Source: a virus
Reading direction: 5' to 3' (one strand)
DNA: 34,406 nucleotides
Virus record (IMG/VR): IMGVR_UViG_3300046009_013557
Coordinates: 1-34,406 of that record
Shown here: piece by piece, positions 1,889-23,761 of the stretch
Numbering within the stretch: the first letter of the stretch is position 1
How the letters are laid out: each line of letters starts with the position of its first letter
Translations under genes and position numbers: made by a program
The notes under the pieces: generated by a model
What the model saw: only the letters and a program-made list of their open reading frames with translations
Databases searched by the model: none
Told to the model about the DNA's origin: nothing

Positions 1889-2410
1889 TTAGATATGTTG
1901 TTGATTTGGATTCCACTTCCTCCACCATTCCTCCCAGGGAAAAACTATCCACTGCGGAGTTTCATGTTTGTTCACATGTTCTGCGGCGTAGGATACATCT
2001 ACTTCGTTATGGCTGCTTTCGTTGTTATACAGCACAGCGATTCTTACATTGCCTCCCCAGACACTGGCCCAAGCTGCATCGTTAGGCAGATTCGACCCTT
2101 GCCAGTCGCGGCGGATCCAATTGATGGTTGCGCCTGAATCATTGATATCATCTACGATCAGTATCTTGCGTCCTTGGAATGCGTCCTCGGCCATCCAAGC
2201 ATTGGTTTCGCATTGCTCATCATCTCTTAGGCTGACTTTTAGCGCATGCATGGGTGCCTCTAGATACTGGCTGATGAGATTGGCTGGAATAAGTCCGCCC
2301 CTGGTTATGCCTACCACATAGTCAGGGTGGAAATCATCGAGGTACATCTGGCGAATGATTTCTTGCGTTTGTCGTTCTACATCCGACCAGTTGACATAGA
2401 CCTTTTTCAT
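1889..2410 (-). CDS. Gpt-like purine phosphoribosyltransferase
   Basis: A 173-residue type I phosphoribosyltransferase. The PRPP-binding loop is ILIVDDINDSGAT (about residues 83-95), and an upstream VVGITRGGLIPANLI segment (about 32-46) matches the SRGGLVPG region of E. coli xanthine-guanine phosphoribosyltransferase. A late tryptophan-rich WIVFPWEEWW echoes the WIEQPWD stretch of Gpt. It would salvage guanine or xanthine (or a related base) to the nucleotide using PRPP. The ATG at 2410 overlaps the stop of the epimerase gene as ATGA, indicating translational coupling. Base specificity cannot be read reliably; hypoxanthine or a modified guanine are alternatives. Confidence 0.85.
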   Translation of the reverse strand: MKKVYVNWSDVERQTQEIIRQMYLDDFHPDYVVGITRGGLIPANLISQYLEAPMHALKVSLRDDEQCETNAWMAEDAFQGRKILIVDDINDSGATINWIRRDWQGSNLPNDAAWASVWGGNVRIAVLYNNESSHNEVDVSYAAEHVNKHETPQWIVFPWEEWWRKWNPNQQHI

Positions 2411-9142: not shown

Positions 9143-9646
9143 CTATGACAGCAGATCCTCATTCCATTCTCTGTGCCCTTCACGGAAGGCCATGTTGCTC
9201 TGTGTTTCACGCACTTCTACACGGAAACACCACAGACGATCGGCTTCAGCAGGCCCCCACATGTCGGGGATATAGACGCCGTTGACATATTTGTACAGCA
9301 TGTCTGCTAGGCCCTCGCAGCCCAGTCTCGGCAGCACAGTGAGTTTGGCCATTTTCTTTTCTTGTAGCAAGCGGAATGTGGCCAGTTCAGGATCGTCTTC
9401 TGCAACCAAGAGTGTGTGATCAAACTGATCTTCCAAGATACCTTTGAGTTCTTTGAGACCACCATAGTCAGCGGCCCAATTACGAACATCAAGGTCGTCG
9501 GTCCCAAAGTAGAACTTCATTGAGAATGAATAGCCATGTATGAGATTGCAATGGCTGTCCGCACGCCATTGGCGATAGGCGCAGGGGAAAGAGTCGTGAT
9601 ACTCTTTGGTTGACACATACTTGTAAACTCTGGTTTCGTGGCTCAT
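9143..9646 (-). CDS. queD: 6-carboxy-tetrahydropterin synthase-like protein (QueD family), altered zinc ligands
   Basis: QueD turns dihydroneopterin triphosphate, the FolE product, into 6-carboxy-tetrahydropterin on the way to preQ0. The 167-residue product keeps the family layout: FPCAYRQWRADSHCNLIHGY with the catalytic-position Cys, DYGGLKELK, FDHTLL, then GCEGLADML and a late VEVRET. Two of the usual zinc His are changed, AAH to CAY and HGH to HGY, so it belongs to a divergent subgroup. The frame opens earlier at 9673, but ATAGGAGATC lies just upstream of the ATG at 9646, which is therefore chosen. A TTTACA-17-TAACAT promoter precedes it. Confidence 0.85.
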   Translation of the reverse strand: MSHETRVYKYVSTKEYHDSFPCAYRQWRADSHCNLIHGYSFSMKFYFGTDDLDVRNWAADYGGLKELKGILEDQFDHTLLVAEDDPELATFRLLQEKKMAKLTVLPRLGCEGLADMLYKYVNGVYIPDMWGPAEADRLWCFRVEVRETQSNMAFREGHREWNEDLLS

Positions 9647-9663
9647 GCTTGATCTCCTATCGT

Positions 9664-9692
9664 ATGTTAGCATAGGCGGCAGAGTTTGTAAA
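9664..9692 (-). promoter_or_regulatory. Sigma70-like promoter upstream of queD
   Basis: On the minus strand, TTTACA (9687-9692) and TAACAT (9664-9669) are separated by 17 bases. This lies in the 78-base gap between the HIT gene and queD, and the GGAG ribosome site follows closely. The -10 box matches the consensus at four of six positions. A separate start for the sugar block is plausible. Confidence 0.5.
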
Positions 9693-10129: not shown

Positions 10130-12561
10130 GATGATTTGATCTCCATTTTTACAGCATACGAATCTTGTGTTGATATCATGCCAGCTGCACTGAATTTTGT
10201 TTGACGATTGATAGATGTTTGATAACCCATCCTGGCAAAGACTGCCAGAGGATTATCAAACCCTGCTCTTACATTAGTATATTGGATGTGTCCGCGATTG
10301 TCAACACCAGTGGGCAAGGTCAGGTCAACTGATCCACCCACGATCTTGGGCAAGGTTCCTGCCGCGATCTGCCAATCTCCAAACGCATAGGTCACGTCGC
10401 TCCAGACAGCAGTTATGGGATTGACACGAGTGACTAGCCCGGGATCAATTTGGGTGGTAGTATACATGGTACCACCACGCATCCTCCAATCATTCTGCCG
10501 CCAAGTCACTGTGGCCTCTGTGGTAGTTGATGATTTTACTGTGCCCCAACTTCCGGTGATATTCATCCAGGGAGAATAAGGCATGGTTGTAAATTGCCAT
10601 GTTCCCCAGAGATTTCCTCCTAGTCGATAATCTGGCATGCCAAACACAAGACTTTGATTATCTGGGCTGGCGCCATACCGGAATCCATTGCTTTGCCCGA
10701 ATTGTAGATTTGTGACCATGCTCAGTGTTCGAGAACTGTCGTCTTTTTCATCTAGTCTAGAGGACCAAGCATTGAGCATGTTTAAGCGGGTGGATGAGTA
10801 ATCCATTGCCCAAGCGCGACCAAATGCGTCCTGCACTTTTAAAGAGTTGGCTGTACTACCTAAATTCACACCGCTGATAGAACCAGACAAGGGCCGGAAT
10901 CCCGACGCAGTGGGTATGGCGATCTTTCCTGCAGGAGAAAGTGCAACAGCAGGATCTAGCAAATTCATGTTCAGATAAGTCCGAGTGCTTTGACTCATGA
11001 TATCATTTACTTGTGCTGAACTCAACCAAGGCCAGTTTGCTACTATGGCAGCCCTGGTTTGATTGTAAGTCATGCCGTTCAAGGGCGTAATGTAGATGGC
11101 ACGATGCGTGGCATGACCAGTGTTACCTGGGTCGGTTCCCACTGCGGTGGCGATGTACATGGTACCACTGGCGTCTTGTATCAACGCCACACCAGTACCG
11201 GTGAAACTTGAGTTGCTCTCCAGAGCCTTGGCGCCATCTTGGAAGGCCTGGAGAACTGTGGCATAACTGGCTTGATATTCAAACCCGTAGATGTTAGAGG
11301 CGCTGTTCCAGATCAGTACCTGAGCGCCGGAGTTGCTGGTCCAAGAGTTGCCCGGAAGCACGATATCAAGCCTACCGTCGCCGTTGATGTCCTTGAACGA
11401 GGCATTGTAACTGGCCACGGTGCTGGTATTGTATCCTTTGAGAACTGTGTCAGTGATGTCTGAGAAGTTGCCTGTTCCACCGTTCTTCAAGAACTGGACT
11501 TCGCTGAGTTCAGGCCACTGTCCGGTGCCGTACTGATTGGCACGGCTGATGATCACAGCATCGCTGACTACGCCTTGGCTGCTGGCCCGGCGTCCTGTGC
11601 CGAGTTCGATATCGGCCAGCACACGAACATCGTGACCACCAGTGAACCCTTGCCCAGCCCATCGCGGGAGTTCGAATCTTGGAGTGGGTAATGCGCTGAC
11701 ATGCGTGACATCGACCCTGCTGTTAGCGAGATCTATGGTGTAGGAATAAAGATTGTTGACGCTACCAGTGGTTGCTCGGGCGCTACCTTGATCTGTGAGG
11801 ATCACACCTTTGGTGCCCACGGCGGTAAAATCAGCCACGGCGATGCCTGCGCCTCCGGCCTGTGGGTTACCTGCCACTGAGAGCCTGGTAAATGTCCTGT
11901 TGGCGTTGCCTAGCAATACTGTAGAACTGCCACCTGCGGTACTCCAAATGTCATCTCGCCCGTCATTGTTCAAGTCGGCGATGGACGAGGCATGAGCATG
12001 CGTGGTAGCCGAAAGAACAATGTCTGTGCGTTGATTGAAACTTGAGTTTCCGCTGTTATAAAACACAGCACCTGTACTGGATAGTTCGTAACCGCCACGC
12101 AAGGCGATGTCGTCAGTATAGGGACCAGCGTACATATCTCGGTGGCCATCGCCGTCGAAGTCGCCAAATTTGACCTCTTCCTCGACACCAGTGACCCGAC
12201 GGTCTAGGCTACCAAACCATTGATTGGTTTTGTTGACTAGTTGACCTCCTTGCCAACCCCAGATAGATATATCAAGATTCTGCCAGGTAGCGGCTGTGGC
12301 ACCCGTGGGATTCTGCCGACCAACTAAGATCAGTTCATCACCACCAGTACCGTCTATATCCTGTGATACCAATGCAGTCTCAGTGGCCACTGCGCCCGAT
12401 CCGCTCAACGGTTTGACCGATTCTACACGGAGGAACGATGTAGTCGAGGGTTGGATGTAAGGATTACCACCGCCTGGCCCACCCCCACCCCCACCGCCAC
12501 ATCCGGTTAGAGCGATACTAACCGCCGTGGCGATCAATGTAGGTTGTAAAGTTTTCCGCAT
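10123..12561 (-). CDS. Large lipoprotein with FG-GAP/VCBS-like repeats
   Basis: An 812-residue exported protein. The N-terminus MRKTLQPTLIATAVSIALTG followed by Cys21 is a lipoprotein signal with an LTGC lipobox, then a run of seven glycines. Residues of about 60-420 contain several calcium-binding FG-GAP/VCBS-like units of the type DGDGHRD, DLNNDGRDD and DINGDGRLD, spaced as in beta-propellers. The last 250 residues are rich in alternating aromatic and polar residues (TWQF, VTWRQNDW, YAFGDWQI) and may form beta structure resembling outer-membrane or autotransporter-type ends. It would be lipid-anchored in the host envelope, or displayed on virions. It has its own strong promoter and is coupled to the HIT gene. 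Confidence 0.75.
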   Translation of the reverse strand: MRKTLQPTLIATAVSIALTGCGGGGGGGPGGGNPYIQPSTTSFLRVESVKPLSGSGAVATETALVSQDIDGTGGDELILVGRQNPTGATAATWQNLDISIWGWQGGQLVNKTNQWFGSLDRRVTGVEEEVKFGDFDGDGHRDMYAGPYTDDIALRGGYELSSTGAVFYNSGNSSFNQRTDIVLSATTHAHASSIADLNNDGRDDIWSTAGGSSTVLLGNANRTFTRLSVAGNPQAGGAGIAVADFTAVGTKGVILTDQGSARATTGSVNNLYSYTIDLANSRVDVTHVSALPTPRFELPRWAGQGFTGGHDVRVLADIELGTGRRASSQGVVSDAVIISRANQYGTGQWPELSEVQFLKNGGTGNFSDITDTVLKGYNTSTVASYNASFKDINGDGRLDIVLPGNSWTSNSGAQVLIWNSASNIYGFEYQASYATVLQAFQDGAKALESNSSFTGTGVALIQDASGTMYIATAVGTDPGNTGHATHRAIYITPLNGMTYNQTRAAIVANWPWLSSAQVNDIMSQSTRTYLNMNLLDPAVALSPAGKIAIPTASGFRPLSGSISGVNLGSTANSLKVQDAFGRAWAMDYSSTRLNMLNAWSSRLDEKDDSSRTLSMVTNLQFGQSNGFRYGASPDNQSLVFGMPDYRLGGNLWGTWQFTTMPYSPWMNITGSWGTVKSSTTTEATVTWRQNDWRMRGGTMYTTTQIDPGLVTRVNPITAVWSDVTYAFGDWQIAAGTLPKIVGGSVDLTLPTGVDNRGHIQYTNVRAGFDNPLAVFARMGYQTSINRQTKFSAAGMISTQDSYAVKMEIKSSW

Positions 12562-12624: not shown

Positions 12625-12640
12625 GTAAGTGAGCACTTAC
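12625..12640. repeat. 7-bp inverted repeat at the end of folE
   Basis: GTAAGTG and CACTTAC are perfect complements separated by two bases and overlap the folE stop codon. No T-run follows in the minus direction, so it is not a classic terminator. It sits just upstream of the -35 box of the lipoprotein promoter, so an operator or an mRNA 3' hairpin are both possible. Confidence 0.5.
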
Positions 12641-13404
12641 CTGGGGGCAAAATCCTGTTGCAGTTTGATGTTGTCTGTGAACTCTTTTTTAACAGCAGGA
12701 TCTGTGCGGAATGCACCATGTAGCACCGTGGTCTGCGTCAACGAACTATGAGCCATGATGCCACGATTCTCACAACAACCATGCGTGGCCTGGATATACA
12801 CTCCGACATCTTTTGAGTCAGTGGCCCGCATGATCTCTCGTGCAATATCATTACAAAGTTCTTCTTGCAAGGTTCCTCGACGACTACACCATTGGGCGAT
12901 GCGTGTGTACTTGCTGAGACCAATGAGTTTCTGTGCCGCTAAGATACCAATATAAGCCACACCCACCACAGGTTGATGATGGTGGCTACACATACTTCGA
13001 ATCTCCGATCGCACAACCAACATTCCTTCATATCTATCAACGGAATCGTTGGGAAAGGCAGTACAGTCAGGTGCAGCATCATAGCGACCGGCCATGATCT
13101 CATTAAAATACATTTTGGCTAATCGTCGGGCCGTGCCTCGTGAATTAGGGTCTGTTTCTCTGTCGATCAACAACCGATCCAGCACTAATTCAAATGCTTC
13201 AGTGGCTTCGTTGATCAATTTATGTTTCATTTCTTCAGTGACATAATCACTAATGTTGTCGCCGGCCCAGAAGCGCTTGCCTTCACGCTTCATTTTAAAG
13301 CGTATGGCATCGGCGAGATATGCTTCTTCATATCCTTTATCACTCATGATTTGACCTGCTTTCAGCATCGCGTTTTCTCTATCTTCTGATGTAAATGTTG
13401 TCAA
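12637..13404 (-). CDS. folE: GTP cyclohydrolase I
   Basis: FolE converts GTP to 7,8-dihydroneopterin triphosphate, the first step toward both folate and 7-deazaguanines. The 255-residue product has zinc ligand motifs MCSHHHQP (C139, His 141-143) and ATHGCCENRG (C200/C201), and the active-site stretch YIGILAAQKLIGLSKYTRI. It is longer than the roughly 220-residue bacterial enzyme because of an N-terminal helical extension of about 60 residues. A good sigma70-like promoter lies upstream. Together with the QueD homologue and DpdA it suggests preQ0 synthesis for DNA modification rather than folate supply; this link is inference. Confidence 0.93.
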   Translation of the reverse strand: MTTFTSEDRENAMLKAGQIMSDKGYEEAYLADAIRFKMKREGKRFWAGDNISDYVTEEMKHKLINEATEAFELVLDRLLIDRETDPNSRGTARRLAKMYFNEIMAGRYDAAPDCTAFPNDSVDRYEGMLVVRSEIRSMCSHHHQPVVGVAYIGILAAQKLIGLSKYTRIAQWCSRRGTLQEELCNDIAREIMRATDSKDVGVYIQATHGCCENRGIMAHSSLTQTTVLHGAFRTDPAVKKEFTDNIKLQQDFAPR

Positions 13405-13448: not shown

Positions 13449-13477
13449 ATTTTAGATGGTATTTAGATGTTTGTCAA
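13449..13477 (-). promoter_or_regulatory. Sigma70-like promoter of folE
   Basis: Minus strand TTGACA (13472-13477), a 17-base spacer and TAAAAT (13449-13454): a perfect -35 box and a one-mismatch -10 box. Transcription would begin near 13442, about 38 bases before the folE ATG. It overlaps the TTTAGATG repeats, which could be an operator. Confidence 0.75.
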
Positions 13478-13503
13478 GAGTTTCGGAATTTATCCATCTA
13501 AAT
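13451..13503. repeat. TTTAGATG repeats in divergent intergenic region (possible operator)
   Basis: TTTAGATG occurs at 13451-13458 and again 11 bases further at 13462-13469, and as the inverted copy CATCTAAA at 13495-13502. The pair ATTTAGATG / CATCTAAAT is a perfect 9-bp inverted repeat. The copies lie between the outward-facing folE and TctC-like genes and overlap the folE promoter, so they may bind a regulator of both. Confidence 0.5.
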
Positions 13504-13517
13504 CTTTGCTTTATAAG
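13489..13517 (+). promoter_or_regulatory. Weak promoter candidate for the plus-strand pair
   Basis: TATAAG (13512-13517) is a good -10 box, preceded at 17 bases by TTTATC (13489-13494), a poor -35. It is 28 bases before the TctC-like ATG, and AGGAGA follows. The only better -35 in the region faces the other way. Confidence 0.35.
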
Positions 13518-13544
13518 TACATACATAATTACCAGGAGAAATCT

Positions 13545-14459
13545 ATGAGATCTTTTTTTGCATCCATCATTTTAGCTATTTCAACTTCGATATCAGCATC
13601 AGAAACTATCACGATTCGTAGTCCATATGATCACAATCATGCTGGTAATTCGGCCCTGCAATCCATCATACAAGTTGCCAATCAAAATCAAAGTGAATAC
13701 AAATTTGTGTTGATATCTCATCCAGGCGGGCAAGGTACTGTGGCACTGTCTAAAGTTGAGCCTTTGAAAGACATCGCTCTGATCCACCCCAGTTTCGTGC
13801 AAAATTCAATTGCAGGAACTGTGAAAGAAAAAAATTGGGTTCCGGTTGGGGCACTAGGAGATGCTTGTTTTTTACTATTGAGCCAAAGAGGTGACAGCAA
13901 AGAAGGCATCCGTAGCCTAAAAAAATCTTCAGGTCCTTTTATGATGGGAGTGGTAGGATTGGGCAGTGCGGCACATTTAGTTGCATTGGAAATTTCATCA
14001 ACTATAGACGTGATCATTGATCCAGTGATGTTTAAAAGTGCAGGCGAAGCAATTCTTACCATGGTAGCACAAGATGAAATGACCATGGCCATGGGTACCG
14101 TTACTCAATTACGCACTCTATCATCCAAAAAAGGATCGGTGACACCACTGGCAGCATTTTGCCCTACTCGACATCCTGATTTACCAGAAGTGTCAACCAT
14201 GCAAGAACAAGGAATTAAGACACCATTGATTTTTAACATACTAGTGGCTAGTGTAGAAATGCCAAAATTTAAAAGAGATCAGATATCTCGGATCTGGGAT
14301 TCCGCATCAAAAGCCGTGGGTAAAGACACAATATTTGCCCAAAGTGGATTTATAAGTCCGCATTTCCAAAACATCAGCATAGAGGATTATTATCGCCAAC
14401 GTATATCTGACATGCATCGGGCACTTGAAAAACACAAAGGAAAAGTCATCGCCAAATGA
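13545..14459 (+). CDS. TctC/Bug-like periplasmic solute-binding protein
   Basis: A 304-residue exported protein and one of only two plus-strand genes. The N-terminus MRSFFASIILAISTSISASE is a Sec signal peptide with an ASA-type cleavage site. The body fits tripartite tricarboxylate transporter receptors: HPGGQGTVAL near residue 60, GVVGLGSAAHLVALE in the middle and a C-terminal helix pair ending in repeated basic residues. Such proteins capture carboxylates in the periplasm. No TctA/TctB membrane partners are present, so it would have to serve a host transporter or do another job. The frame opens at 13467, but the ATG at 13545 follows AGGAGA and starts the signal peptide. The stop overlaps the next start (ATGA). 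Confidence 0.75.
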   Translation: MRSFFASIILAISTSISASETITIRSPYDHNHAGNSALQSIIQVANQNQSEYKFVLISHPGGQGTVALSKVEPLKDIALIHPSFVQNSIAGTVKEKNWVPVGALGDACFLLLSQRGDSKEGIRSLKKSSGPFMMGVVGLGSAAHLVALEISSTIDVIIDPVMFKSAGEAILTMVAQDEMTMAMGTVTQLRTLSSKKGSVTPLAAFCPTRHPDLPEVSTMQEQGIKTPLIFNILVASVEMPKFKRDQISRIWDSASKAVGKDTIFAQSGFISPHFQNISIEDYYRQRISDMHRALEKHKGKVIAK

Positions 14460-15541
14460 AAAGAGCAGTGATTTGTGTATCTCGGCCATGGGAAGTAATC
14501 GATCATTATGAAAAGGATTACAGCATCATGGTTGTCAATCCATCGACCACTCCTGACAGATTACGGTACCTTTTAGATAATTCTGACTATTCTGTATTGG
14601 TATCAGACCATGGAGTTAAAACAAGGAATGGTTGCGATTACTCAGGAGAAAAGGTCTATTGGTATACATCTGGAACTACCGGCGATAGTAAATTCTTTAG
14701 TTTCAGTGCAGAGCAATTGGATATCATGAGCAAAACCATTTGTTGTGCTTATGATATCACAGCCAATGATAGATATTTTAGTGTGATGCCACTGTGGCAC
14801 GGACATGGGCAGGGTTTCTATTGGGCTATGCGTTTGATAGGCTGCGAAGCCGTGTACGGGAATATATTTGATCAAGAAAAGATTGAAAAATTACAACCAA
14901 CTTTCATTACCAGTATTCCAGACATGATGAAGGTTTTCATGACATACAATCTAGAAAATCTAAGATTCGTAAGGACTGCGAGTTCTTCACTGACCAATAA
15001 CTTGTATGATGCTATAAAAAAACGTTGGCAGTGTCCGGTGATTGAAGCGTTTGGCATGACCGAAGCACTGAGCCATTGTTTCACTAATTCCTTGCACGGA
15101 GAACAGCGGATTGGTACTGTTGGATTGCCTGATGGCATACAGGCAGAATTAAGGAATCAACATCTCTGGATCCAAGGTCCATGCACTGTGAATAGAGATT
15201 GGGTGGATACAGGTGATCTTGCAGAGCAAGACGATCAAGGTTATGTAAAAATATTAGGAAGATCTGTAGATAGAATCAATGTCAAAGGTTACAAGATTGA
15301 TCCACTTAGTATCGAAAATCAACTCTATAACCAATTTGAAGATATCAAAGAGGTTGCAGTTTTCGGCTCCGATCGACTCAAGTGTGTGTTTGTGGGCGAT
15401 GTAGATCTGCATAAGGTAAGTGCTTTTCTAGTATCTCTTGGTTCGGCCTGCAGGCCTAGATTTTTACAGCAAATAGATGAAATCCCAAAAAACACGGCCG
15501 GTAAAATAAGCAGATCTTTGTTGGAACAATATTTTTCATAA
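14456..15541 (+). CDS. Short AMP-forming acyl ligase (ANL superfamily)
   Basis: A 361-residue adenylating enzyme. Key motifs are intact: the phosphate loop YTSGTTGDSK (70-79), MPLWHGHGQG, FGMTEA (199-204), the ribose-binding DTGD (251-254), the hinge GRSVDRINVKGYK and the C-terminal catalytic Lys in NTAGKISR (K350). It would activate a carboxylic acid as acyl-AMP. The family is usually about 500 residues; here most of the N-terminal subdomain before the P-loop is missing, leaving about 70 residues, yet the frame is uninterrupted. No carrier protein or CoA partner is seen nearby. It is coupled to the TctC-like gene by ATGA, and its stop abuts the stop of the convergent acyltransferase gene. 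Confidence 0.85.
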   Translation: MKRAVICVSRPWEVIDHYEKDYSIMVVNPSTTPDRLRYLLDNSDYSVLVSDHGVKTRNGCDYSGEKVYWYTSGTTGDSKFFSFSAEQLDIMSKTICCAYDITANDRYFSVMPLWHGHGQGFYWAMRLIGCEAVYGNIFDQEKIEKLQPTFITSIPDMMKVFMTYNLENLRFVRTASSSLTNNLYDAIKKRWQCPVIEAFGMTEALSHCFTNSLHGEQRIGTVGLPDGIQAELRNQHLWIQGPCTVNRDWVDTGDLAEQDDQGYVKILGRSVDRINVKGYKIDPLSIENQLYNQFEDIKEVAVFGSDRLKCVFVGDVDLHKVSAFLVSLGSACRPRFLQQIDEIPKNTAGKISRSLLEQYFS

Positions 15542-16165
15542 AGCCAGTTCTAAACTTGTACGATCATCCACTAGTTTCCGTCCTGCCCAGGTACCACTGC
15601 TGGCTACAGATTCAGTCAATCTACCATTGGCATAAAAATTACACCATGCCGGAGTCAATATCTTGGTCTCTGGATATCCAAAAAACTGGTTATTAATGCC
15701 TACGAAATTTCCATGGCCTATGGAGCAGAAAGAAAAATAACCGTAAGGAGCTATATGGCATAGATCGCCAATAATGACTTCGTGGCTGATCATTACAAAA
15801 TTTGTGATACAGGAAAAATCACCCACCTTTGCATCATCATACAGAACATTTTTATGATTAATCAGGGTACTGCGTCCAATGGTTACATTGTGACCTAGCA
15901 CTGAATCCGCACTTACCACGCTGAATAAATCAGCAGGTACATCCTTGAAAAAATTTTTTACTTTCAATCTGAACGATACATTGCTCATAACACACATAAA
16001 TTGATGATCTTGGAGCCATGTCTGGCTTTGTTGTTCTAACTCTTCGATGCTAACAAGTTGGGAGGATCGAGAAGGAGAAAAATATCTATTCAAACAACGA
16101 TTATGGTAACTGTGACCTACAAAGACCAATGGTTTATCGTGGTCATATAAAATTTTATAATTCAT
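15536..16165 (-). CDS. Left-handed beta-helix acyltransferase (NeuD-like)
   Basis: A 209-residue protein with an N-terminal YKILYDHDKPLVFVGHSYHN strand-like segment and a C-terminal hexapeptide-repeat coil: SVLGHNVTIGRSTLINHKNV, VGDFSCITNFVMISHEVIIG, LCHIAPYGYF and IGHGNFVGINNQFFG. This architecture matches NeuD/PglD-type acetyltransferases, which acylate amino sugars. The frame extends to 16267, but the ATG at 16165 lies just after the upstream stop (16170) and begins the domain, so it is preferred. It could use the acyl group activated by the convergent ANL enzyme, but that is inference. It ends tail to tail with that gene, with a 6-base overlap. Confidence 0.8.
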   Translation of the reverse strand: MNYKILYDHDKPLVFVGHSYHNRCLNRYFSPSRSSQLVSIEELEQQSQTWLQDHQFMCVMSNVSFRLKVKNFFKDVPADLFSVVSADSVLGHNVTIGRSTLINHKNVLYDDAKVGDFSCITNFVMISHEVIIGDLCHIAPYGYFSFCSIGHGNFVGINNQFFGYPETKILTPAWCNFYANGRLTESVASSGTWAGRKLVDDRTSLELAL

Positions 16166-16169
16166 ATGT

Positions 16170-17063
16170 TTAGGGCAGTTTTCCAGATCCAAGATATTTG
16201 TTAAAACACAATCTGTTATTGCCAGCACCTCGATCATAATCTTTCCACCGCTGATCGCCCAGGCCAAATATCACTGTAGGACTAATAGTGGCCCCCAACT
16301 GGTTACACCATTCATTTTGTCGATCACGATATCGTGTGGGTATGTAATCTGGACCAAACGCCTGCAACAATTCACAGCCTAGATATGCTCCTACACGATT
16401 GGTGTAATTGGTCTTGTTGAGCACAAACAAAGGATCATCGTCGTCATATCTGGTCACCCGCATACCAATGCGAGCATGTGACAACGGAAAACTCTTGCTC
16501 ATGCTAAAAGTCACATCCCTGATGCATGACCATGTGAGATCGATATCAAGTCCAGCGCAGATGCCCATATAGGCACAATCTAACAATACAGGAATATCCA
16601 TTGCTTCACATAATGACAGCACTCGATCCATGTCGTCGTGTTTGCCGCCGGTATCTGCAAATGGGTAACTGATCACAACCGCATCTCCGGATCTTAGATC
16701 ATCGTGATCTATGTAACACCAGTTAGGAAAACAATTCCGCCAACTAAGGATATGATACATGTATTCTCCTCGGAAGCAGCGGAATCGTCTGGTATGATTT
16801 TTAAGATAGAATTTGTCAAAAGCCTCAGTGGTAGCGTTGGTATAACAGGCATGAGAGAATTGATCGAGACCTTGCACCTGATTAGATTGTGTAGACTGGA
16901 TCCAAACACGGTACTGCTCCAAAAATCTATGAGTCATGGTATCATCATTCAGAATGCTCGGCAGATCAATCTTTATATCTTTGATCTTGGCCAACTGATC
17001 GGGATCCTGCACGGCCCCGGCTCCACCAAATGGCAGTATTTTGAGATTGGGTAAAGTGCTCAC
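16170..17063 (-). CDS. PLP-dependent fold type I aminotransferase-like enzyme
   Basis: A 297-residue protein starting at a GTG (17063) that overlaps the upstream stop as GTGA; an ATG frame start at 17144 would cover 85 bases of the neighbour. Motifs of class I/II aminotransferases are present: VVISYPFADTGG, then IPVLLDCAYMGIC with the pyridine-nitrogen Asp (D162) and Tyr (Y165), and FSMSKSFPLSHARIGMR with the Schiff-base Lys (K190) and phosphate-contact Arg (R198). It is about 100 residues shorter than typical members, mostly at the C-terminus. An amino transfer, decarboxylation or condensation is possible. Its neighbours are two oxygenases and an acyltransferase. Confidence 0.78.
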   Translation of the reverse strand: MSTLPNLKILPFGGAGAVQDPDQLAKIKDIKIDLPSILNDDTMTHRFLEQYRVWIQSTQSNQVQGLDQFSHACYTNATTEAFDKFYLKNHTRRFRCFRGEYMYHILSWRNCFPNWCYIDHDDLRSGDAVVISYPFADTGGKHDDMDRVLSLCEAMDIPVLLDCAYMGICAGLDIDLTWSCIRDVTFSMSKSFPLSHARIGMRVTRYDDDDPLFVLNKTNYTNRVGAYLGCELLQAFGPDYIPTRYRDRQNEWCNQLGATISPTVIFGLGDQRWKDYDRGAGNNRLCFNKYLGSGKLP

Positions 17064-17575
17064 AGTCTTACACCTGTTATTTGTAAAGTATAGCGTGGAA
17101 TACTGCCAAGATTTCCGGCCATGTGCGGAGCGTCTCCTTGCCAAGCTACAAAGGTTCCAGCTGGATATTGATTACAGGGTTTTGAATCAATCTCAAACAA
17201 GAAGCCAGGTTGCCAGTCTTGCATGAACACGATTGCTCTCCAGATATCCTTGACTTGCACATCAAACACCTTGGTAAATCTTGCATAGGTATCCTGATGA
17301 TATGGTAGCAGATCACCAGGCATCATTTTGTAATACGAAGTACCCACATGATCGAGATCTAGCCCGGCGCTCCTGATATCTTGTAAAATGGTAGAGGTAC
17401 ACCCCGGCTGTTGTCGCCGATAGTCGGCTTGTAAGCCGCTGCGGTAAATGGAACCGTATAGATCATTCCATCTTTGCATGGTGTCCGGGTCATTAAACTC
17501 TTCGTAGAAATAATCCATGCCTTCGATATCCGACATGGACCACGAAACAGGTATCTGTCCTTGGAAATGGGTCAT
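17060..17575 (-). CDS. 2OG-Fe(II) oxygenase-like small protein
   Basis: A 171-residue protein with a cupin-type iron site: LPYHQDTY (H93, D95), a distal His in DAPHMAGN (H151) and R161 in IPRYTLQITG in the place of the 2-oxoglutarate-binding residue. Aromatic-rich strands such as WRAIVFMQDWQPG lie between. It would hydroxylate or otherwise oxidise a small molecule or peptide. No named family is recognised. It is coupled on both sides by ATGA/GTGA overlaps to another 2OG-type oxygenase and the PLP enzyme, which suggests sequential steps. Confidence 0.7.
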   Translation of the reverse strand: MTHFQGQIPVSWSMSDIEGMDYFYEEFNDPDTMQRWNDLYGSIYRSGLQADYRRQQPGCTSTILQDIRSAGLDLDHVGTSYYKMMPGDLLPYHQDTYARFTKVFDVQVKDIWRAIVFMQDWQPGFLFEIDSKPCNQYPAGTFVAWQGDAPHMAGNLGSIPRYTLQITGVRL

Positions 17576-18330
17576 TGATGATCTCTCATGTCAATTGGTT
17601 TTTTGGACTGTTCATCATACCAATACAAACTTCGATGTGGTTGTGTGTGTGGAGTGCTATTGCTTTGATAATAGAAAATCCGTAGGGCTATCCTAGAATT
17701 ATTTTCGGGACAATCAATGGGTTGCGGATATCCATGGTACAATCTTTCGTCATAGTCCCATATCAACAATCTGTTGCTCAAACAGTCTATAGTCTGCACA
17801 GGCCCTTGTCTATCAAAATCCCAAAACTCCAAAGCACCGCCCCATTCTGATTGCCATCTGGGATTTATATACAGTATCAAACTCAAACAACGATTTAGTC
17901 TTAACTCATCGTTCCAATTGAAATCAGTGTGTAATTTTAGACTGTGTCCATTGTGCGTTTCGCTCACGCCTGCTCCAATGAGATGAGGGTCACTGATCAA
18001 ATTACTCAATCCAGTGATATTCTCAAGCCAGTCTAGGAACGCACCGCTGTTGAACCCATGACATAAAGTTTGCAGTACAGGGGATGCTTGGAAATTTTTG
18101 GACTCTCGCATGCAACTTCCATTGCGTGTAAATCGAGTCCAGTAGTCCTGTGGGATCAATGTTGTCTGCTGAGATACCTCAGAAAAAAGATCCTGTGGTA
18201 AAAAATCATCTATCACTAAAAATGGGACAGGTTTTCCATTTTTGTAATCCCATAGATAATCCCTAGGATGGAATTTTTTTGGAAGTTCATTAAAAAAAGT
18301 GTATAAGTCTTGATGTACATCTTTATCCAT
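17572..18330 (-). CDS. 2OG-Fe(II) oxygenase (prolyl 4-hydroxylase-like)
   Basis: A 252-residue protein with the HxD site in LKLHTDFNW (H134, D136), the strand motif SLILYINPRWQSEWGGALEF typical of P4H-like enzymes, a distal His in RLYHGYP (H199) and NSRIALRIFYY with the likely 2-oxoglutarate Arg. The chain begins PFLVIDDFLPQDL, also usual in this family. A frame start at 18384 is possible, but AGGATC just upstream of the ATG at 18330, plus a 9-base gap to the upstream stop, favour the shorter form. It could hydroxylate a sugar, lipid, amino acid or peptide; the substrate is unknown. Confidence 0.82.
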   Translation of the reverse strand: MDKDVHQDLYTFFNELPKKFHPRDYLWDYKNGKPVPFLVIDDFLPQDLFSEVSQQTTLIPQDYWTRFTRNGSCMRESKNFQASPVLQTLCHGFNSGAFLDWLENITGLSNLISDPHLIGAGVSETHNGHSLKLHTDFNWNDELRLNRCLSLILYINPRWQSEWGGALEFWDFDRQGPVQTIDCLSNRLLIWDYDERLYHGYPQPIDCPENNSRIALRIFYYQSNSTPHTQPHRSLYWYDEQSKKPIDMRDHQ

Positions 18331-18338
18331 GATCCTAT

Positions 18339-19352
18339 TTAACCGTTTTCTCCTAGCAAAGAGAATATTTTGTGTTTTATGCAAGACGAGTAAATGGAGT
18401 CAAACATTCCAGATTGGAAATTTTCTTGATTCATCTTGCGTTGTTGATATGTGGCCCGATAAACAGCGTCGAGGTCTTGATTCATAAGATCATCAAGTAT
18501 TTCATGCATCCGGTCAATCCTAGATTGCCAGTCCATTTCGTTATCATAATAAGAATGGTCAATGACATCGTCGAAAACCTGCACGCCCACGGATCTCAGA
18601 TAATCAATGCTACCAGGATTGCCCACAGATAAAAATAATTGTCCAGAGGCCACGGGTTTCCATGTTTTTTCGCTCATGTAAATGCCGTCAATCACAGAGT
18701 GCTCGGTGATGATATTAATATACGAATCAGTATAAGCTGGATTATCTAGATTCCATATATAGGTTTTACCAAAATAATTTGAATCTTTGAACCGAGGTGA
18801 TTCAAAGAATTGATCTTTGCATTTATTCCAACTCTCCCATATTTCTTCTGACAGTTGAGGATCATCGGGTCTTGGGTGTAGTTGATCATGCATGGACCAA
18901 AGACATTCACTAAAATATTTTTTATCTTTGGCCTTGTACCAGTTGTAGATACGATGAGGTCTAGCAAAATGATTCAGACATGATATTTTGTATCTCCTCG
19001 GTAATATCAGATTCCGTTGGCTGGGATAGATAAATTTGCTCTTACTGTTATGATATTCAGACGGATAAAATAAAAGATTTGGTCGCCGTTGATGATCCTC
19101 GGGTCGATGGCTGAGTAATAGAAACTTACAGTCGTCTGATTCAAGTTGATCATAAACACAATCTATTAGCCGGTGTTTGCCAGGTCCCCAGTGTTCTGTA
19201 CTGAGATCTACAACCAGCAATAGATTTTTATGTACTGATTCAGAGATGACTCGATTTAGATTATCTTTCCAATAGTTTTCGATAAAATAGATATGATCAA
19301 TGTATAATATTTTTGGATGTTGTTTCCAGGGTTCTATAATGTCGCGACACAT
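18339..19352 (-). CDS. Fucosyltransferase-like glycosyltransferase candidate
   Basis: A 337-residue protein of uncertain function. The C-terminal third contains ISEHS-like and YMSEKTWKPVASGQLFLSVG, then NPGSIDYLRSVGVQVFDDVI. That arrangement (a SEK/TEK helix, 'KPxASGQ', a strand and a Gly turn) resembles the donor site of family 10/11 fucosyltransferase-like GT-B proteins and of conserved phage proteins. No membrane segment is present. The N-terminal half is not recognised. It starts three bases from the stop of the 46-residue ORF. A sugar-transfer role fits the neighbourhood but is not proven. Confidence 0.5.
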   Translation of the reverse strand: MCRDIIEPWKQHPKILYIDHIYFIENYWKDNLNRVISESVHKNLLLVVDLSTEHWGPGKHRLIDCVYDQLESDDCKFLLLSHRPEDHQRRPNLLFYPSEYHNSKSKFIYPSQRNLILPRRYKISCLNHFARPHRIYNWYKAKDKKYFSECLWSMHDQLHPRPDDPQLSEEIWESWNKCKDQFFESPRFKDSNYFGKTYIWNLDNPAYTDSYINIITEHSVIDGIYMSEKTWKPVASGQLFLSVGNPGSIDYLRSVGVQVFDDVIDHSYYDNEMDWQSRIDRMHEILDDLMNQDLDAVYRATYQQRKMNQENFQSGMFDSIYSSCIKHKIFSLLGENG

Positions 19353-19355
19353 GAC

Positions 19356-19496
19356 TTAGTGCGTATACCACTGTTGATCGTCTAACAATATAGCACCACA
19401 TTTGCCCACACTCAATGGCTTACCGTAGTCAAAATAAGGAGCTCCAGTATATAGAGACAGTTCGTGTTCTAGATGAAATAGTTGATCAAAATTCAT
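19356..19496 (-). CDS. Small 46-residue ORF, unknown function
   Basis: The minus strand reads MNFDQLFHLEHELSLYTGAP followed by 26 more residues, ending in QQWYTH. The ATG at 19496 overlaps the TGA of the upstream SGNH gene (ATGA), and the TAA at 19356-19358 lies three bases before the ATG of the next gene. This exact fit in an otherwise unexplained 140-base gap is the main evidence that it is real. It is acidic and aromatic-rich with a single Cys and no signal peptide. It could be a small partner protein or, less likely, a modified peptide, given the nearby radical SAM and oxygenase genes. No family is recognised. Confidence 0.6.
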   Translation of the reverse strand: MNFDQLFHLEHELSLYTGAPYFDYGKPLSVGKCGAILLDDQQWYTH

Positions 19497-20515
19497 TGCG
19501 AAAGGTGATCCTTTTTTATTTCGCGCACCGAACAACCTAATCTGTCTGCCATGGCATTTTTTAACTGAATTCGTTGATTATTGAGATTTCTTATTTCCAA
19601 CGCCCGTCGCCCTATTTCTTCAAGAGAGAGTTCATGATCTCGTCCAGATTTTAATTCACTTTCTTTGTTCCAAATATCGTTATGTATAGATACTAGTTGA
19701 GTATATAGATCTTGTATCAATCCAAAATCAAGTCCTACTACCTGGTCTCTATACCAGTCTAGTTCGGGTTTATTTTTTTGGCTTCTTTGCCACTTGATTT
19801 CCGCGATTGCCAATCGATCAAATAATTCAATGACTGGAAATACACTGTTTTTCTGTTGTAATCGCAGGTAATCTAATAGATGTTGGGCCCAAAGGGCATG
19901 CCCTTGTGGGTTGAAATGCGCATCTTCATCGCTGATAAAACATTTATTTTCCAATATAAAATCCAAGGTGTACCCGGCGCCCTGCAAATCTAAGTCATGT
20001 ACACTATCATGGCTAAAGAAAAAAGGAACATGTGTGCCTGTACAGGTACCCTTAACTGCGTGAAAATATCCAGACAACGATATTTTTTGTTCGATAAGAG
20101 AATAATAATCTCTAAACCATACATCATAGAAATGATTAGATGTGTGTTGAGGACTAAAGTTACACCATTTATCTACTGTATCATTGAGAGGATTCCGGCT
20201 TCTAATAATTTTAACATCGTTTATATTCCACATAAAACTACGAGCCAATGACTGTTCGTGATTGGGATTGTCTGGATCATAAACAAAACTTTTACGAGAC
20301 GGGTGGCTCCATCCTACTATTACCACATCCTCAGGTTTAATCAACGCTTTGTTAGACAGGTAACATTGATAGATATAAAAATTATCTGCTGCAGGGACTG
20401 CAAAATTTTTTAATTCACCGCATAATTCTTGCGCTATGATTTCCGGCCAGCCCAAGACATTTTTTTGGAGTTTATAAGGCAAGCATAAACTATCGCCGAA
20501 GACCCAAATTTTCAT
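19493..20515 (-). CDS. SGNH hydrolase-like protein with C-terminal helical domain
   Basis: A 340-residue protein. The first part is SGNH-like: VFGDSLCLPYK (S9), VIVGWSHPSRK and the block V-type EDAHFNPQGHALWAQHL. The last about 110 residues form a separate helical domain beginning VIELFDRLAIAEIKWQRS, resembling short DUF6165-like modules found in glycan loci; that match is tentative. No signal peptide. It is ATGA-coupled to the radical SAM gene upstream and to the 46-residue ORF downstream. It may add or remove an acyl group on the product of the cargo block. Confidence 0.65.
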   Translation of the reverse strand: MKIWVFGDSLCLPYKLQKNVLGWPEIIAQELCGELKNFAVPAADNFYIYQCYLSNKALIKPEDVVIVGWSHPSRKSFVYDPDNPNHEQSLARSFMWNINDVKIIRSRNPLNDTVDKWCNFSPQHTSNHFYDVWFRDYYSLIEQKISLSGYFHAVKGTCTGTHVPFFFSHDSVHDLDLQGAGYTLDFILENKCFISDEDAHFNPQGHALWAQHLLDYLRLQQKNSVFPVIELFDRLAIAEIKWQRSQKNKPELDWYRDQVVGLDFGLIQDLYTQLVSIHNDIWNKESELKSGRDHELSLEEIGRRALEIRNLNNQRIQLKNAMADRLGCSVREIKKDHLSQ

Positions 20516-21540
20516 AGATATAATTGTTCAATTTTTTTTGGATTATTCAAGATATCTTGGATCTGGTTGTTGGTATGATTCGGCCGACAGGGTCGGCATA
20601 GAGATACATTGGTACCATGGTAGATAGCATGATGTCTATCTTTCTGCCACAAATCGCGGAAATCACCTTGATCCCATCTACCAAGGGCAAAATTAGGATT
20701 GCCTTTGTTATCACAACAAACATATATGTATCCTTCAGCACAGAATACTGGAAAATGATACATTTGATGGCATCTTTTGTAGTGGCGGGGTTGGGTCTTA
20801 TTTTCGTTAATCCAGTAGGGTACGCCGGTCCGATCGCTGGCTTGTTTGATCCAGAGTTTCAATTCATCGGTAATTTTATGCGCTTTCCCTTCATAGATAA
20901 CAGGTCTAAAGTAAAGTGCTCGACCGTTTATTTCTTTCACATAGTTGAATAAATCATCTATGGCCAGTTTGTTATCATTGAAGGGATTTATCAAACACTT
21001 AAAATCCACATTGATTCCTGCCTTGATAAGTTCGCTAGCGTTCTCTTTCACTCTTTGAAAAAGACTCTTGCTTGTCAGACTACGGCGAATCCGTTCATAG
21101 AGTTCTTCTGTCCCGGCATCAATGTCAATACCGATCCACGCAATTTTTTGCAGTTTTGCCACTGTTACGGAATCCAGTAGTCGATTCAATTTACTTCCAT
21201 TTGTAGTAATAGATGTTAGGAAACCAAGATCGATTGTGTGTTCAATGACATGCTCGTAGCCTGACAATACCGTGGGCTCCCCACCACCTGGGTAGGTTAT
21301 AGCATGCGTTGTACCAAAACTGTTGGGACTGTGTGATCGCCAAGTCACAAGACGATCAAGCAAATCAATGTATTCTGTATATTTTTTTTGAACAGGAGCG
21401 GTTGTACGGTGTTCTGCCGAATTACAATAATAGCAATCCTGATTGCATATGTTGGTTAGATCAATATCCACTTGGGCAGGCAACAAAATTTTGCTGTCCT
21501 GATTTCTCATCCAATGTACGAGTTCAGCTGCGTGATACAT
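20512..21540 (-). CDS. Radical SAM protein with SPASM-like C-terminus
   Basis: A 342-residue radical SAM enzyme. The [4Fe-4S] motif is ICNQDCYYCN (C32-x3-C36-x2-C39), followed by TYPGGGEPTVL, the GGE motif that binds SAM, and TSITTNGSKL. The C-terminal part has additional Cys in CHQMYHFPVFCAEGY, YVCCDNKG and LCRPCRP, as in SPASM/twitch domains holding auxiliary clusters. Members modify peptides, sugars or tRNA; no specific class is clear. It is the first gene after a promoter candidate and heads the AT-rich cargo block. Radical chemistry on a sugar or amino acid intermediate is possible. Confidence 0.85.
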   Translation of the reverse strand: MYHAAELVHWMRNQDSKILLPAQVDIDLTNICNQDCYYCNSAEHRTTAPVQKKYTEYIDLLDRLVTWRSHSPNSFGTTHAITYPGGGEPTVLSGYEHVIEHTIDLGFLTSITTNGSKLNRLLDSVTVAKLQKIAWIGIDIDAGTEELYERIRRSLTSKSLFQRVKENASELIKAGINVDFKCLINPFNDNKLAIDDLFNYVKEINGRALYFRPVIYEGKAHKITDELKLWIKQASDRTGVPYWINENKTQPRHYKRCHQMYHFPVFCAEGYIYVCCDNKGNPNFALGRWDQGDFRDLWQKDRHHAIYHGTNVSLCRPCRPNHTNNQIQDILNNPKKIEQLYL

Positions 21541-21568: not shown

Positions 21569-21596
21569 ATTTTAGATCATTTTCTGGATTTATCAA
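21569..21596 (-). promoter_or_regulatory. Promoter candidate for the cargo block
   Basis: Minus strand TTGATA (21591-21596), a 16-base spacer and TAAAAT (21569-21574), lying in the gap between galE and the radical SAM gene. Start of transcription would be near 21562. It would let the radical SAM-to-acyltransferase block be read on its own. Confidence 0.5.
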
Positions 21597-21598
21597 TA

Positions 21599-22552
21599 TC
21601 ATCTAGTGTACCAGGCCCAGGCGTGACTGATCATGTCATCCAATGTCCACCGAGGTTGCCAGCCCGATGCCTTAATAAACTTGTCAGCGGATGCAGTAAG
21701 AAGAGCCGGGTCTCCTTCTCTTTTGGGACCCACTGTGATTTTTAACTTGCGTTCAGTGATCCGCTCGGCCGCTGTGATGATTTCTCTGTTGCTGACACCT
21801 TGCTTGGTTCCGAGGTTGTAGACACCACTGGACAAAGATTTATCAATACATCGAATGTGTGCATCTGCGATATCTTGCACATGTACATAATCTCTGACGC
21901 AGGTGCCGTCGGGGGTGGCATAGTCTTCGCCATTTAATACAAATTCTCGATCATTTTTCAAAGCTTCCAGCACTCGAGCGATGATATGGGTGGCGCCAGA
22001 TCGCTGTCCATGGCGGCCTTGGCTGTCTGCACTACAGGCATTGAAATATCTCAAAGCCACGAAATCGAGATTGTAGGCATGCTTATAACTGTTCATCATC
22101 CATTCGATCATGAGTTTGCTTTGACCGTAGGGGCTGATAGGTTCGCAAGGATCAACTTCGCTACACGGAGTCATGATAGGCTCACCGTAACAGGCAGCCG
22201 AACTGCTGAAGATTACACGGGTATTGATTTTATTATCCACGATGTAATCTAATAGTTTTTTTGTCTTGACAAAGTTATTGTTATAATAGTCAGCGGGCCG
22301 TCCCAGGCTGGGACCGACCAAACTGGAGCCTGCACAATGGACCACAGCCACGGGATCGAATTGATGTAACAAATCCAAGGCATAGGAGTTGCTGAAATCT
22401 TCTTGATAGAATCTGTCGGCCACAAATCCAAGATGGCTTGGGCAGACCACAGTGTCTACACCAACGACTCTGTAGTCATGATCCTTGAGGCGTAGCATGG
22501 TTTCGCCTCCTATGAAACCGCCAGCACCAGTCACTAATACAGTCTTGTTCAT
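21599..22552 (-). CDS. galE: UDP-glucose 4-epimerase
   Basis: GalE interconverts UDP-glucose and UDP-galactose (or the N-acetyl forms). The 317-residue product has VLVTGAGGFIGGET for NAD, VVHCAGSSLVGPS, FSSSAACYG and the catalytic PYGQSK (Y142, K146). It also has ALRYFNACSAD and VRDYVHVQDIADAHI, all hallmark GalE segments. It is near the usual length of about 330 residues. Its start abuts the stop of a glycosyltransferase gene (TAAATG). It probably supplies UDP-galactose or UDP-GalNAc to the glycosyltransferases here. Confidence 0.93.
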   Translation of the reverse strand: MNKTVLVTGAGGFIGGETMLRLKDHDYRVVGVDTVVCPSHLGFVADRFYQEDFSNSYALDLLHQFDPVAVVHCAGSSLVGPSLGRPADYYNNNFVKTKKLLDYIVDNKINTRVIFSSSAACYGEPIMTPCSEVDPCEPISPYGQSKLMIEWMMNSYKHAYNLDFVALRYFNACSADSQGRHGQRSGATHIIARVLEALKNDREFVLNGEDYATPDGTCVRDYVHVQDIADAHIRCIDKSLSSGVYNLGTKQGVSNREIITAAERITERKLKITVGPKREGDPALLTASADKFIKASGWQPRWTLDDMISHAWAWYTR

Positions 22553-23761
22553 TTAAGCCTCGACTTTGATTATGTGATATTTGTTAGCAGGAACATGATC
22601 TCTGTATCGATTACCAGAACGGTTCCATTGCTCTCCTTGCCCTGTGATAATGTCTACCACACGATCCACAGTGCCGTTGTTCCAATCGGATATGAGACCC
22701 ATGTTATGGTGCGGTTGATCCAGCAGTTGTTCTAACTTAGCAAAGGCATCATCCAGGCTCCAAGGAACATAAAGACGATCAGGATCATTGGCAAAAGTTT
22801 CAGGAAAACTACGATAAGCAGGATATAGAACATTACAACCAAGAGTATCGGCCTCCGAGACGGTGTTGGAGACCCAGTCCTGAAGAGCACAATTAAATAA
22901 TACGCGAGTATCATTAAGCAGAGTGTAATAATCATTTTTCTTCAACCCGTCGTAGATTTTCAATTTGCCGTCGGCCTGCATGGCTCGGGCACGCTCAAGG
23001 TATTTAGGATTGTTAGATCGCAATGTACCACCCGAAAACACCGCAAACTCGACATCCTTGTAGCGACCTTTTGAAAGATACATTTCAATTAGGTCCATAT
23101 AGAAGTCAGGTTGCTTTTCCTGGTCAAACCTGGCAGCGAACCCCACTCGCATCTTGCGATCGCTGAATGGTTTTACTCGGTCGTGGCCACCGATGCGTTC
23201 TAGCACTTCTGATTTGCCAAATGCCAAACCTGAAATATTGTAGATAGGCGCGGTCCAGCCTGCGATACGCATGTGAGCGACCATTTCCTCATTGGTGGCT
23301 AATACATGCACGTTGGGTATCTGGTTGACCATGCGTTCATAAGTGCTCATCCAGCCGGCCATGTTCCATACATGCACGAAGTCATCAGGATCGATGGCCT
23401 GTGCCAGGCAGCGTACAAAGACACGAGGTCTGAGATTTGTTGGCACTTGATCAATGATATAAGGCAGCGATTCTATGCCAGGCTGGAACATGTCTTCGAA
23501 GTAGATCACATCTTGATCAGTGACATCACCGTCTCGCATCATCTGTACTAGATTCATCATCTGGCTCATGGCAAAATAACTGCGACCATGTGCATCTAGA
23601 ACCTGACCTACTGAGATGCTCTGCGTGTTGTCGATGGTTGACCCGGGCACATATACAACATCTAGCCCACGACGATCAAAAACACGACGATTCCATTCTG
23701 TGAGTTGTAGAGAGTAGCGTGCTTCATACGACTCCAAACCCATATAGAATAACTTACGCAT
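22553..23761 (-). CDS. GT-B glycosyltransferase-like protein
   Basis: A 402-residue protein with a family 4-like donor half: KMRVGFAARFDQEKQPDFYM, YKDVEFAVFSGG, KIYDGLKKNDYYTLLNDTRV and ALQDWVSNTVSEADTLGC, the last corresponding to the acidic Ex7E region of GT4/GT1-like enzymes. The N-terminal half is a Rossmann-like acceptor domain of uncertain specificity. Start and stop are tightly placed: its ATG overlaps the 71-residue gene's stop by one base and its stop abuts galE. Conserved in T4-like marine phages as far as I recall; the acceptor is unknown. Confidence 0.75.
   Translation of the reverse strand: MRKLFYMGLESYEARYSLQLTEWNRRVFDRRGLDVVYVPGSTIDNTQSISVGQVLDAHGRSYFAMSQMMNLVQMMRDGDVTDQDVIYFEDMFQPGIESLPYIIDQVPTNLRPRVFVRCLAQAIDPDDFVHVWNMAGWMSTYERMVNQIPNVHVLATNEEMVAHMRIAGWTAPIYNISGLAFGKSEVLERIGGHDRVKPFSDRKMRVGFAARFDQEKQPDFYMDLIEMYLSKGRYKDVEFAVFSGGTLRSNNPKYLERARAMQADGKLKIYDGLKKNDYYTLLNDTRVLFNCALQDWVSNTVSEADTLGCNVLYPAYRSFPETFANDPDRLYVPWSLDDAFAKLEQLLDQPHHNMGLISDWNNGTVDRVVDIITGQGEQWNRSGNRYRDHVPANKYHIIKVEA

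Follow-up and report, generated by a model that had tools for sequence, protein, structure and literature searches.

The window analysed in the present study, the entire 34,406-nt metagenomic contig of IMG/VR record IMGVR_UViG_3300046009_013557, is, judging from its sequence relationships, a fragment from an uncultured jumbo phage, and contains a hypervariable slot filled with enzyme genes. There is about an even chance that the slot enzymes make an N-acylated amino sugar and transfer it to an acceptor, as a swappable tailoring cassette in a jumbo-phage operon. Comparison of gene orders indicates that the enzyme block is a variable insert, bounded on one side by a glycosyltransferase-like gene (GT2) together with a GalE-type epimerase gene and on the other side by folE. 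The annotation of the neighbouring genes places the slot inside an operon for the modified base precursor 7-deazaguanine (folE, queD, a phosphoribosyltransferase (PRT) gene and queE). The features of the window are the following (coordinates, strand, assignment, basis):

22553..23761, minus: GT2, conserved glycosyltransferase-like protein, slot boundary; weak GT-4-type Pfam matches below the cut-off
21599..22552, minus: EPI, GalE-type UDP-glucose 4-epimerase family; TIGR01179, 294 bits (cut-off 262)
20512..21540, minus: rSAM, radical S-adenosylmethionine (SAM) protein whose C-terminal region is rich in Cys (twitch/SPASM-like); Radical_SAM, 8.5e-14
19493..20515, minus: SGNH-like protein fused to D120; no Pfam match
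19356..19496, minus: 46-aa open reading frame (ORF), mini-DegT remnant; two collinear profile segments
18339..19352, minus: putative glycosyltransferase (GT-like protein) with an SEKTWKP motif; no Pfam match, motif resemblance
17572..18330, minus: OG2A, 2-oxoglutarate (2OG)/Fe(II) oxygenase; 2OG-FeII_Oxy_3 PF13640, 1.1e-14
17060..17575, minus: OG2B, small 2OG/Fe(II) oxygenase-like protein; no Pfam match, HQD and PH motifs
16170..17063, minus: PLP, compact pyridoxal phosphate (PLP)-dependent, fold-type-I aminotransferase-like protein; no Pfam match, predicted structure and motifs
15536..16165, minus: NeuD/PglD/VioB-like left-handed beta-helix acyltransferase; Hexapep 1.1e-7, TIGR03570 3.9e-14
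14456..15541, plus: ANL, compact 361-aa AMP-forming acyl ligase; AMP-binding PF00501, 4.7e-25
13467..14459, plus: TctC-like periplasmic solute receptor; PF03401, 1.1e-5, below gathering
12637..13404, minus: FolE-like GTP cyclohydrolase I, second slot boundary; PF01227, 1.8e-38
9143..9673, minus: QueD-like 6-pyruvoyl-tetrahydropterin synthase, backbone; PF01242 3.6e-14, phrog_2389 1e-35
1889..2410, minus: PRT, backbone; PF00156, 5.7e-15

Structure of the Slot in the Window and Its Relatives

In the minus-strand run from rSAM (21540) to NeuD (15536), the genes overlap or sit a few bases apart; the PLP gene has a GTG start overlapping the OG2B stop. On the plus strand, the TctC-like gene, absent from an earlier note made from the sequence alone, overlaps the ANL start by ATGA (translationally coupled), and ANL converges on NeuD. 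All the ORFs which that note had listed (rSAM, SGNH, the 46-residue ORF, the GT-like protein, two 2OG oxygenases, PLP, the NeuD-like protein and ANL) are present at the positions given, and the tail-to-tail meeting of ANL with the run is borne out by an overlap of a few bases. Its call of an SGNH hydrolase stands as regards the SGNH-like part, but the product is not a single-domain protein, being fused to a domain of ~120 aa, D120.

The relatives of the window are viral contigs, the largest of ~357 kb; their loci, on metagenomic contigs, are designated by L-numbers, and genes in them were called by a simple longest-ORF method. A further sample was obtained with GT2: the loci of the best 80 GT2 matches yielded 56 non-redundant complete slots, whose content was not preselected. 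Epimerase and mini-DegT, a half-size aminotransferase of the DegT/StrS type, were each found in 53 of these, OG2B in 10, rSAM in 7, and PLP, NeuD and ANL in 1 each. This distribution suggests that GT2, the GalE-type epimerase and one aminotransferase are the steadier part of the slot, around which accessory enzymes are exchanged. Loci fetched with mini-DegT frequently have the minimal order GT2, mini-DegT, folE, and in the cultured Sinorhizobium phage Phosso GT2 is followed by one small ORF and then by folE, with no slot genes between. GT2 is 65–86% identical among the relatives, and the FolE of the window is 57% identical to that of Phosso. The loci of other co-occurrence tests were fetched by module genes (PLP, rSAM), which inflates counts such as those of rSAM together with D120 (34 of 35 slots) and of OG2A together with PLP (12 of 13).

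Compared with these loci, the window is a composite, in which a rSAM/SGNH/D120/mini-DegT cassette with a decayed DegT gene is followed by a GT/2OG/2OG/PLP/NeuD cassette meeting the convergent TctC-ANL pair. Among the loci compared, the SGNH-D120 fusion occurs only in the window; rSAM, SGNH and D120 are separate genes in L066, L084 and L093. The second cassette recurs in large part in other loci: L192 contains most of it (OG2A, PLP, OG2B and NeuD with convergent ANL-TctC, the ANL being a 507-aa form), and most of its enzymes are found in L107 (GT, PLP, OG2A, NeuD, a DUF2061 protein and a 361-aa ANL, all on one strand) and L033 (GT/PLP/OG2A/NeuD/ANL). The tightly coupled single unit that the earlier note had described was not supported: the hypervariable slot brings together two cassettes, of which one has partly decayed, and the GT2 sample has rSAM at a frequency of only 7/56 and PLP, NeuD and ANL at 1/56 each.

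The idea of a separate origin, based on spot counts of 22 and 35 G+C in 60 nucleotides, gained support from base composition at large: the window has a G+C content of 45.7%, with 37.5–43% in the slot blocks against 47–48% to either side; in relatives, the slot has a lower G+C content than its own flanks in 84 of 98 cases. The spot counts themselves are exact, but values of this kind are common (14% and 5% of 60-nt windows). As to the suggested promoter of the run, a scan did find one 10/12 match at 21596–21569 (minus strand), but promoter-like matches were not above those in shuffled sequences (29 vs. 32.4).

Decay and Replacement of the Mini-DegT Aminotransferase

Two collinear segments of the 46-aa ORF align to positions 3–23 and 107–130 of the 196-position mini-DegT profile, and the ORF lies directly after D120, where relatives have an intact mini-DegT of ~200 aa; because of this collinearity and location, the ORF is a mini-DegT remnant with an in-frame internal deletion and a lost C-terminus, not as a gene of its own. 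The exact junction was not found in other viral contigs, the remnant being known from one assembly, and the window locus has no full DegT/StrS aminotransferase besides it. The mini-DegT proteins of the relatives match PF01041 (2.6e-14) and keep the lysine and glycine motifs; their profile matches the sugar aminotransferases WbpE, perosamine synthase and ArnB.

Among 21 slots carrying PLP, an intact mini-DegT occurs in one (L201, which has both) and is missing in 20, including the window with its remnant. Because of this near-exclusion, the PLP enzyme and mini-DegT are taken to replace each other in the slot. A first test of the exclusivity was biased, its loci having been fetched by PLP and rSAM, and it was repeated against the GT2-fetched sample, where mini-DegT is present in 53 of 55 PLP-free slots, compared with one PLP slot, entered in the test as 1 of 20 (Fisher p ~1e-14). 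The arrangement in the window may have arisen from a rSAM/SGNH/D120/mini-DegT cassette like those of L066 and L084, through decay of the DegT gene, fusion of SGNH with D120 and placement of a PLP cassette after it. The window would then capture one enzyme class being replaced by an unrelated class at the same step.

Catalytic Motifs and Predicted Structures

The 46-aa remnant excepted, catalytic motifs are intact in the enzymes described below. The rSAM protein has the CxxxCxxC motif at residues 32–39, a GGE motif and the invariant cysteines C257, C275, C276, C315 and C318. Its AlphaFold 2 (AF2) model (pLDDT 88.6) matches DesII (Z 23.9 over 321 residues), SkfB (23.9), BlsE (22.1), BtrN (16.2) and also SuiB; of these matches, DesII, BlsE and BtrN are sugar or aminocyclitol enzymes. 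DesII was not among the PDB profile matches of rSAM, and no reaction is assigned to this protein because its fold match to DesII ties with that to SkfB.

The PLP protein contains a DCAY (DxAY) motif, the Schiff-base motif SMSK(x7)R, with the arginine eight residues on, and an RLCF motif, residues which we take to be equivalent to those of aspartate aminotransferase. AF2 modelling (pLDDT 87.1) gave Z 21.8 to Pad-1, and Foldseek matched the model to 3p1t and HisC; the modelling settles its assignment as a compact fold-type-I aminotransferase-like enzyme. OG2A has HxD...H and Arg residues invariant across 10 relatives, and the HQD and PH motifs of OG2B are matched in L068. The NeuD-like protein, resembling NeuD, PglB and VioB, scores 52.7 bits with TIGR03570, below the cut-off of 160.8; His128 is invariant in 8/8 sequences, and the alignment was too variable for a scan. 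ANL has a complete set of motifs (TSGTTG, GMTE, TGD, GRSVD, GKISR), its best PDB profile matches being oxalate- and benzoate-CoA ligases.

The profile family of the GT-like protein comprises 27 to 164 members. No meaningful PDB profile match and no PDB homologue with known activity were found for GT2, and the SGNH/D120 alignment had no PDB profile match. Assignment of D120 to DUF6165 was rejected: a search of the window for PF19662 at E 1 gave no match, and four D120 copies had no Pfam match above the curated cut-off.

Proposed Pathway and Alternative Explanations

In the pathway proposed here, the epimerase and rSAM would prepare or oxidise a sugar carbon, and an aminotransferase would add an amine; in most slots this is mini-DegT, and in a smaller number, the window included, the compact PLP enzyme. 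TctC may aid the import of a small acid, which ANL would activate as acyl-AMP or acyl-CoA; the NeuD-like enzyme would place the acyl group on the amine, and the 2OG oxygenases might hydroxylate the sugar or the acyl chain. The GT-like protein and GT2 would then transfer the product to an acceptor, either modified DNA or a surface or virion glycan. In the window, the PLP cassette would substitute for the decayed mini-DegT.

Several points weigh against this pathway. Its reactions, substrate and acceptor are all deduced from the genes; the best rSAM fold match is shared with a peptide maturase, SkfB, and the best folds for PLP are HisC/Pad-1-like, families which act on amino acids and not on nucleotide sugars. 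Mini-DegT is without the usual C-terminal part, the slot epimerase is of the GalE type, and a 4,6-dehydratase to provide the keto sugar was not identified. The short-chain dehydrogenase/reductase (SDR) proteins at 2407 and 4024 do not have the typical dehydratase motif (by a pattern check only), and the host may supply an NDP-sugar 4,6-dehydratase. ANL, NeuD, PLP and rSAM each occur in a minority of the GT2-sampled slots, and, away from the folE slot, about half of the 361-aa ANL loci lack an aminotransferase gene at a distance of up to five genes.

A different explanation is that the radical SAM/SPASM-like protein modifies a ribosomally synthesised peptide, with the 46-aa ORF as its precursor. 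A twitch/SPASM-like enzyme near a small ORF, with SkfB and SuiB among its fold matches, would agree with this, but the site of this ORF is that of the ~200-aa aminotransferase in relatives, which have no conserved peptide gene beside rSAM, and the peptide explanation is therefore very improbable. It is unlikely, too, that ANL and TctC form a cassette of their own for the uptake and activation of an acid, with no relation to the sugar enzymes. The pair has its own strand and a coupled start, and elsewhere ANL adjoins genes for a beta-keto acid cleavage enzyme (BKACE), an SDR or a nitronate-monooxygenase-like (NMO-like) protein, in some loci without an aminotransferase; yet the window, L056, L068, L114 and L192 all have ANL convergent with NeuD, and in L107 and L033 it follows NeuD on the same strand. 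A DegT or PLP gene lies within five genes of ANL in 14/14 contexts in the EPI-folE slot, in 4/11 near DNA polymerase and in 5/11 in other places, and at ten ANL loci outside the folE slot none of DegT, PLP, NeuD, GT or SGNH is nearby. With about half of the off-slot loci lacking a nearby aminotransferase, ANL therefore has other partners also and is in part an independent cassette.

The compact ANL family has 113 confirmed viral relatives. A solute receptor or transporter gene stands beside ANL in several loci: TctC in the window, L056, L114 and L192, and a major facilitator superfamily (MFS) gene in L033 and L004; the TctC of the window is 51% identical to the one adjoining ANL in L114/L115. 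In several loci, ANL is found with NeuD and GT near DNA polymerase. A second site with ANL, mini-DegT, NeuD and GT was observed in L132, L150, L163, L176, L179, L185, L188 and L190, near DNA polymerase where the contig reaches it, several having an NMO-like gene (PF03060). The 361-aa ANL adjoins BKACE in L158 and an SDR in L164, with no module genes near.

Operon Setting and the Acceptor

FolE and QueD are encoded in the window; a QueE-like protein (f137, read from sequence) is encoded in relatives, not in the window fragment, and queE is annotated in cultured relatives. In the cultured Synechococcus phage BUCT-ZZ01, only a few genes separate GT2 from folE, none of them recognised as a slot gene, and queD, a phosphoribosyltransferase gene and queE follow further on; the PRT of the window shares 33% identity with the protein annotated as XGPRT in this phage, whose gene adjoins queE. 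In the cultured phage PA5oct, a GT2 homologue is five genes from queE. GT2 is thus near queE in three cultured phage groups (BUCT-ZZ01, Phosso and PA5oct), annotated as hypothetical in two of the three.

The acceptor may be the phage DNA: the operon would make a 7-deazaguanine base, to which GT2 and the slot enzymes add an amino sugar varied between phages against restriction. Modified DNA is a serious possibility because the slot is surrounded by folE, queD, PRT and, in relatives, queE, with DNA polymerase adjacent, and because the GT2–queE linkage recurs in three groups whose genomes are otherwise different; in one of them, Phosso, the stretch from GT2 to folE is free of slot genes. Phages with the 7-deazaguanine pathway but without DpdA have been described, at least some of them with modified DNA (PMC6884629), so that the absence of a match to PF01702 (TGT/DpdA) in 11 long contigs, records which may be fragments, does not settle the matter. 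QueC, however, gave only marginal matches, in 2/10 contigs, GT2 is without a PDB homologue of known activity, and linkage by itself is no proof of a shared acceptor. A hydroxymethylase check, made with PF00303 only, gave strong matches in 4/10 contigs (fragments), read as genuine thymidylate synthase, with no hint of hydroxymethyl bases. On this evidence the DNA acceptor is rather doubtful. The fuller proposition, that 7-deazaguanine in the phage DNA receives from the slot enzymes an acylated amino sugar, with cassette swaps changing the structure of this sugar between phages and with a virus-specific half-size sugar aminotransferase replaceable by an unrelated PLP enzyme, seems unlikely.

A host envelope or virion surface acceptor, with an O-antigen-like or capsid/tail glycan blocking superinfection or varying antigenicity, can be put forward tentatively and is at least as likely as DNA. 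This fits the genes nearby, which include GTs, methyltransferases, a second epimerase, UDP-glucose dehydrogenase (Ugd) and a gene with weak resemblance to sulfotransferases, and also the NeuD and DegT types, which are characteristic of loci for surface polysaccharides; the fibrils of Mimivirus are glycosylated in a like manner (PMC9614988). Conversely, the annotated slot families include no identified flippase, polymerase or lipid-carrier transferase, and the linkage of the slot is with folE/queD/queE and DNA polymerase and not with structural genes.

Source of the Window and Neighbouring Genes

The DNA polymerase of the window is 49.9% identical to that of phage Phosso and 45% to that of Agrobacterium phage Atu_ph07. 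No cellular relative of rSAM was found among the genome contigs searched. The sole match of PLP in cellular genome contigs was L107 (DLXM01000126.1), labelled as a Bacteroidetes metagenome-assembled genome contig; although so filed, it has the phage slot layout from epimerase to folE and is probably a misbinned phage contig. Plasmid matches, considered as a host clue, were spread over many genera for MFS, and there were none for TctC.

Between 1889 and 9673 (minus strand), PRT and the queD-like gene are interspersed with the second epimerase, methyltransferase and Ugd genes; the sulfotransferase-like gene and further GTs are also near the slot. The product of 27453–28184 (minus) is 30% identical to the annotated sliding clamp of Phosso. 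The gene at 10123–12561 (minus) encodes a protein of 812 aa that begins with a lipobox-like LTGC and then has a run of glycines; a similar protein is found after folE in several relatives.

Comparison with Known Systems

The earlier note had suggested a small-molecule or modified sugar pathway not known in phages; a modified-sugar module is supported, and rSAM, PLP and SGNH had no close match among the phage isolates of INPHARED, but the module is not a single unit. No account of the slot's enzyme combination was found among open-access papers. In the bacterial anthrose, viosamine (VioA/VioB) and perosamine-derivative routes, a DegT aminotransferase adds the amine, which is then N-acylated with an unusual acyl-CoA. 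Those routes use full-length aminotransferases, whereas the slot uses mini-DegT or a fold-I PLP enzyme, in phages and exchangeably. Anthrose and perosamine are treated together with the UDP-viosamine pathway of Mimivirus, formed by the aminotransferase L136 and the PglB-like acetyltransferase L142 (PMC9614988). The slot resembles the latter in pairing a virus-encoded DegT-type aminotransferase with a PglB-like N-acyltransferase for an N-acyl amino sugar; Mimivirus differs in being a giant eukaryotic virus with a full-length L136, an acetyl-CoA donor and a separate dehydratase, R141, and its pathway is without the ANL, radical SAM and 2OG enzymes that the slot carries (PMC9614988). Both mini-DegT, with at least 563 confirmed viral stretches, and GT2, with at least 577 viral relatives, are frequent in contigs of phages; should the aminotransferase produce an amino sugar, exchangeable sugar chemistry would be encoded by many phages themselves.

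The butirosin enzyme BtrN is a radical SAM enzyme acting on an aminocyclitol, and DesII is the radical SAM sugar deaminase of the TDP-desosamine pathway (for DesII, PMC11434129). As with these enzymes, rSAM stands near an aminotransferase step, and DesII is among its top fold matches; unlike them, it has invariant extra cysteines and the fold tie with SkfB, its identity to them being 14–16%. The phage 7-deazaguanine DNA modification systems, including the described DpdA-less group (PMC6884629), likewise have folE, queD and queE in one neighbourhood, but in the operon studied here, with marginal QueC and no DpdA found, these genes are joined by GT2, an epimerase and an aminotransferase. If the acceptor is DNA, phages would be decorating it in a new way, and a role of the sugar in countering restriction could be tested.

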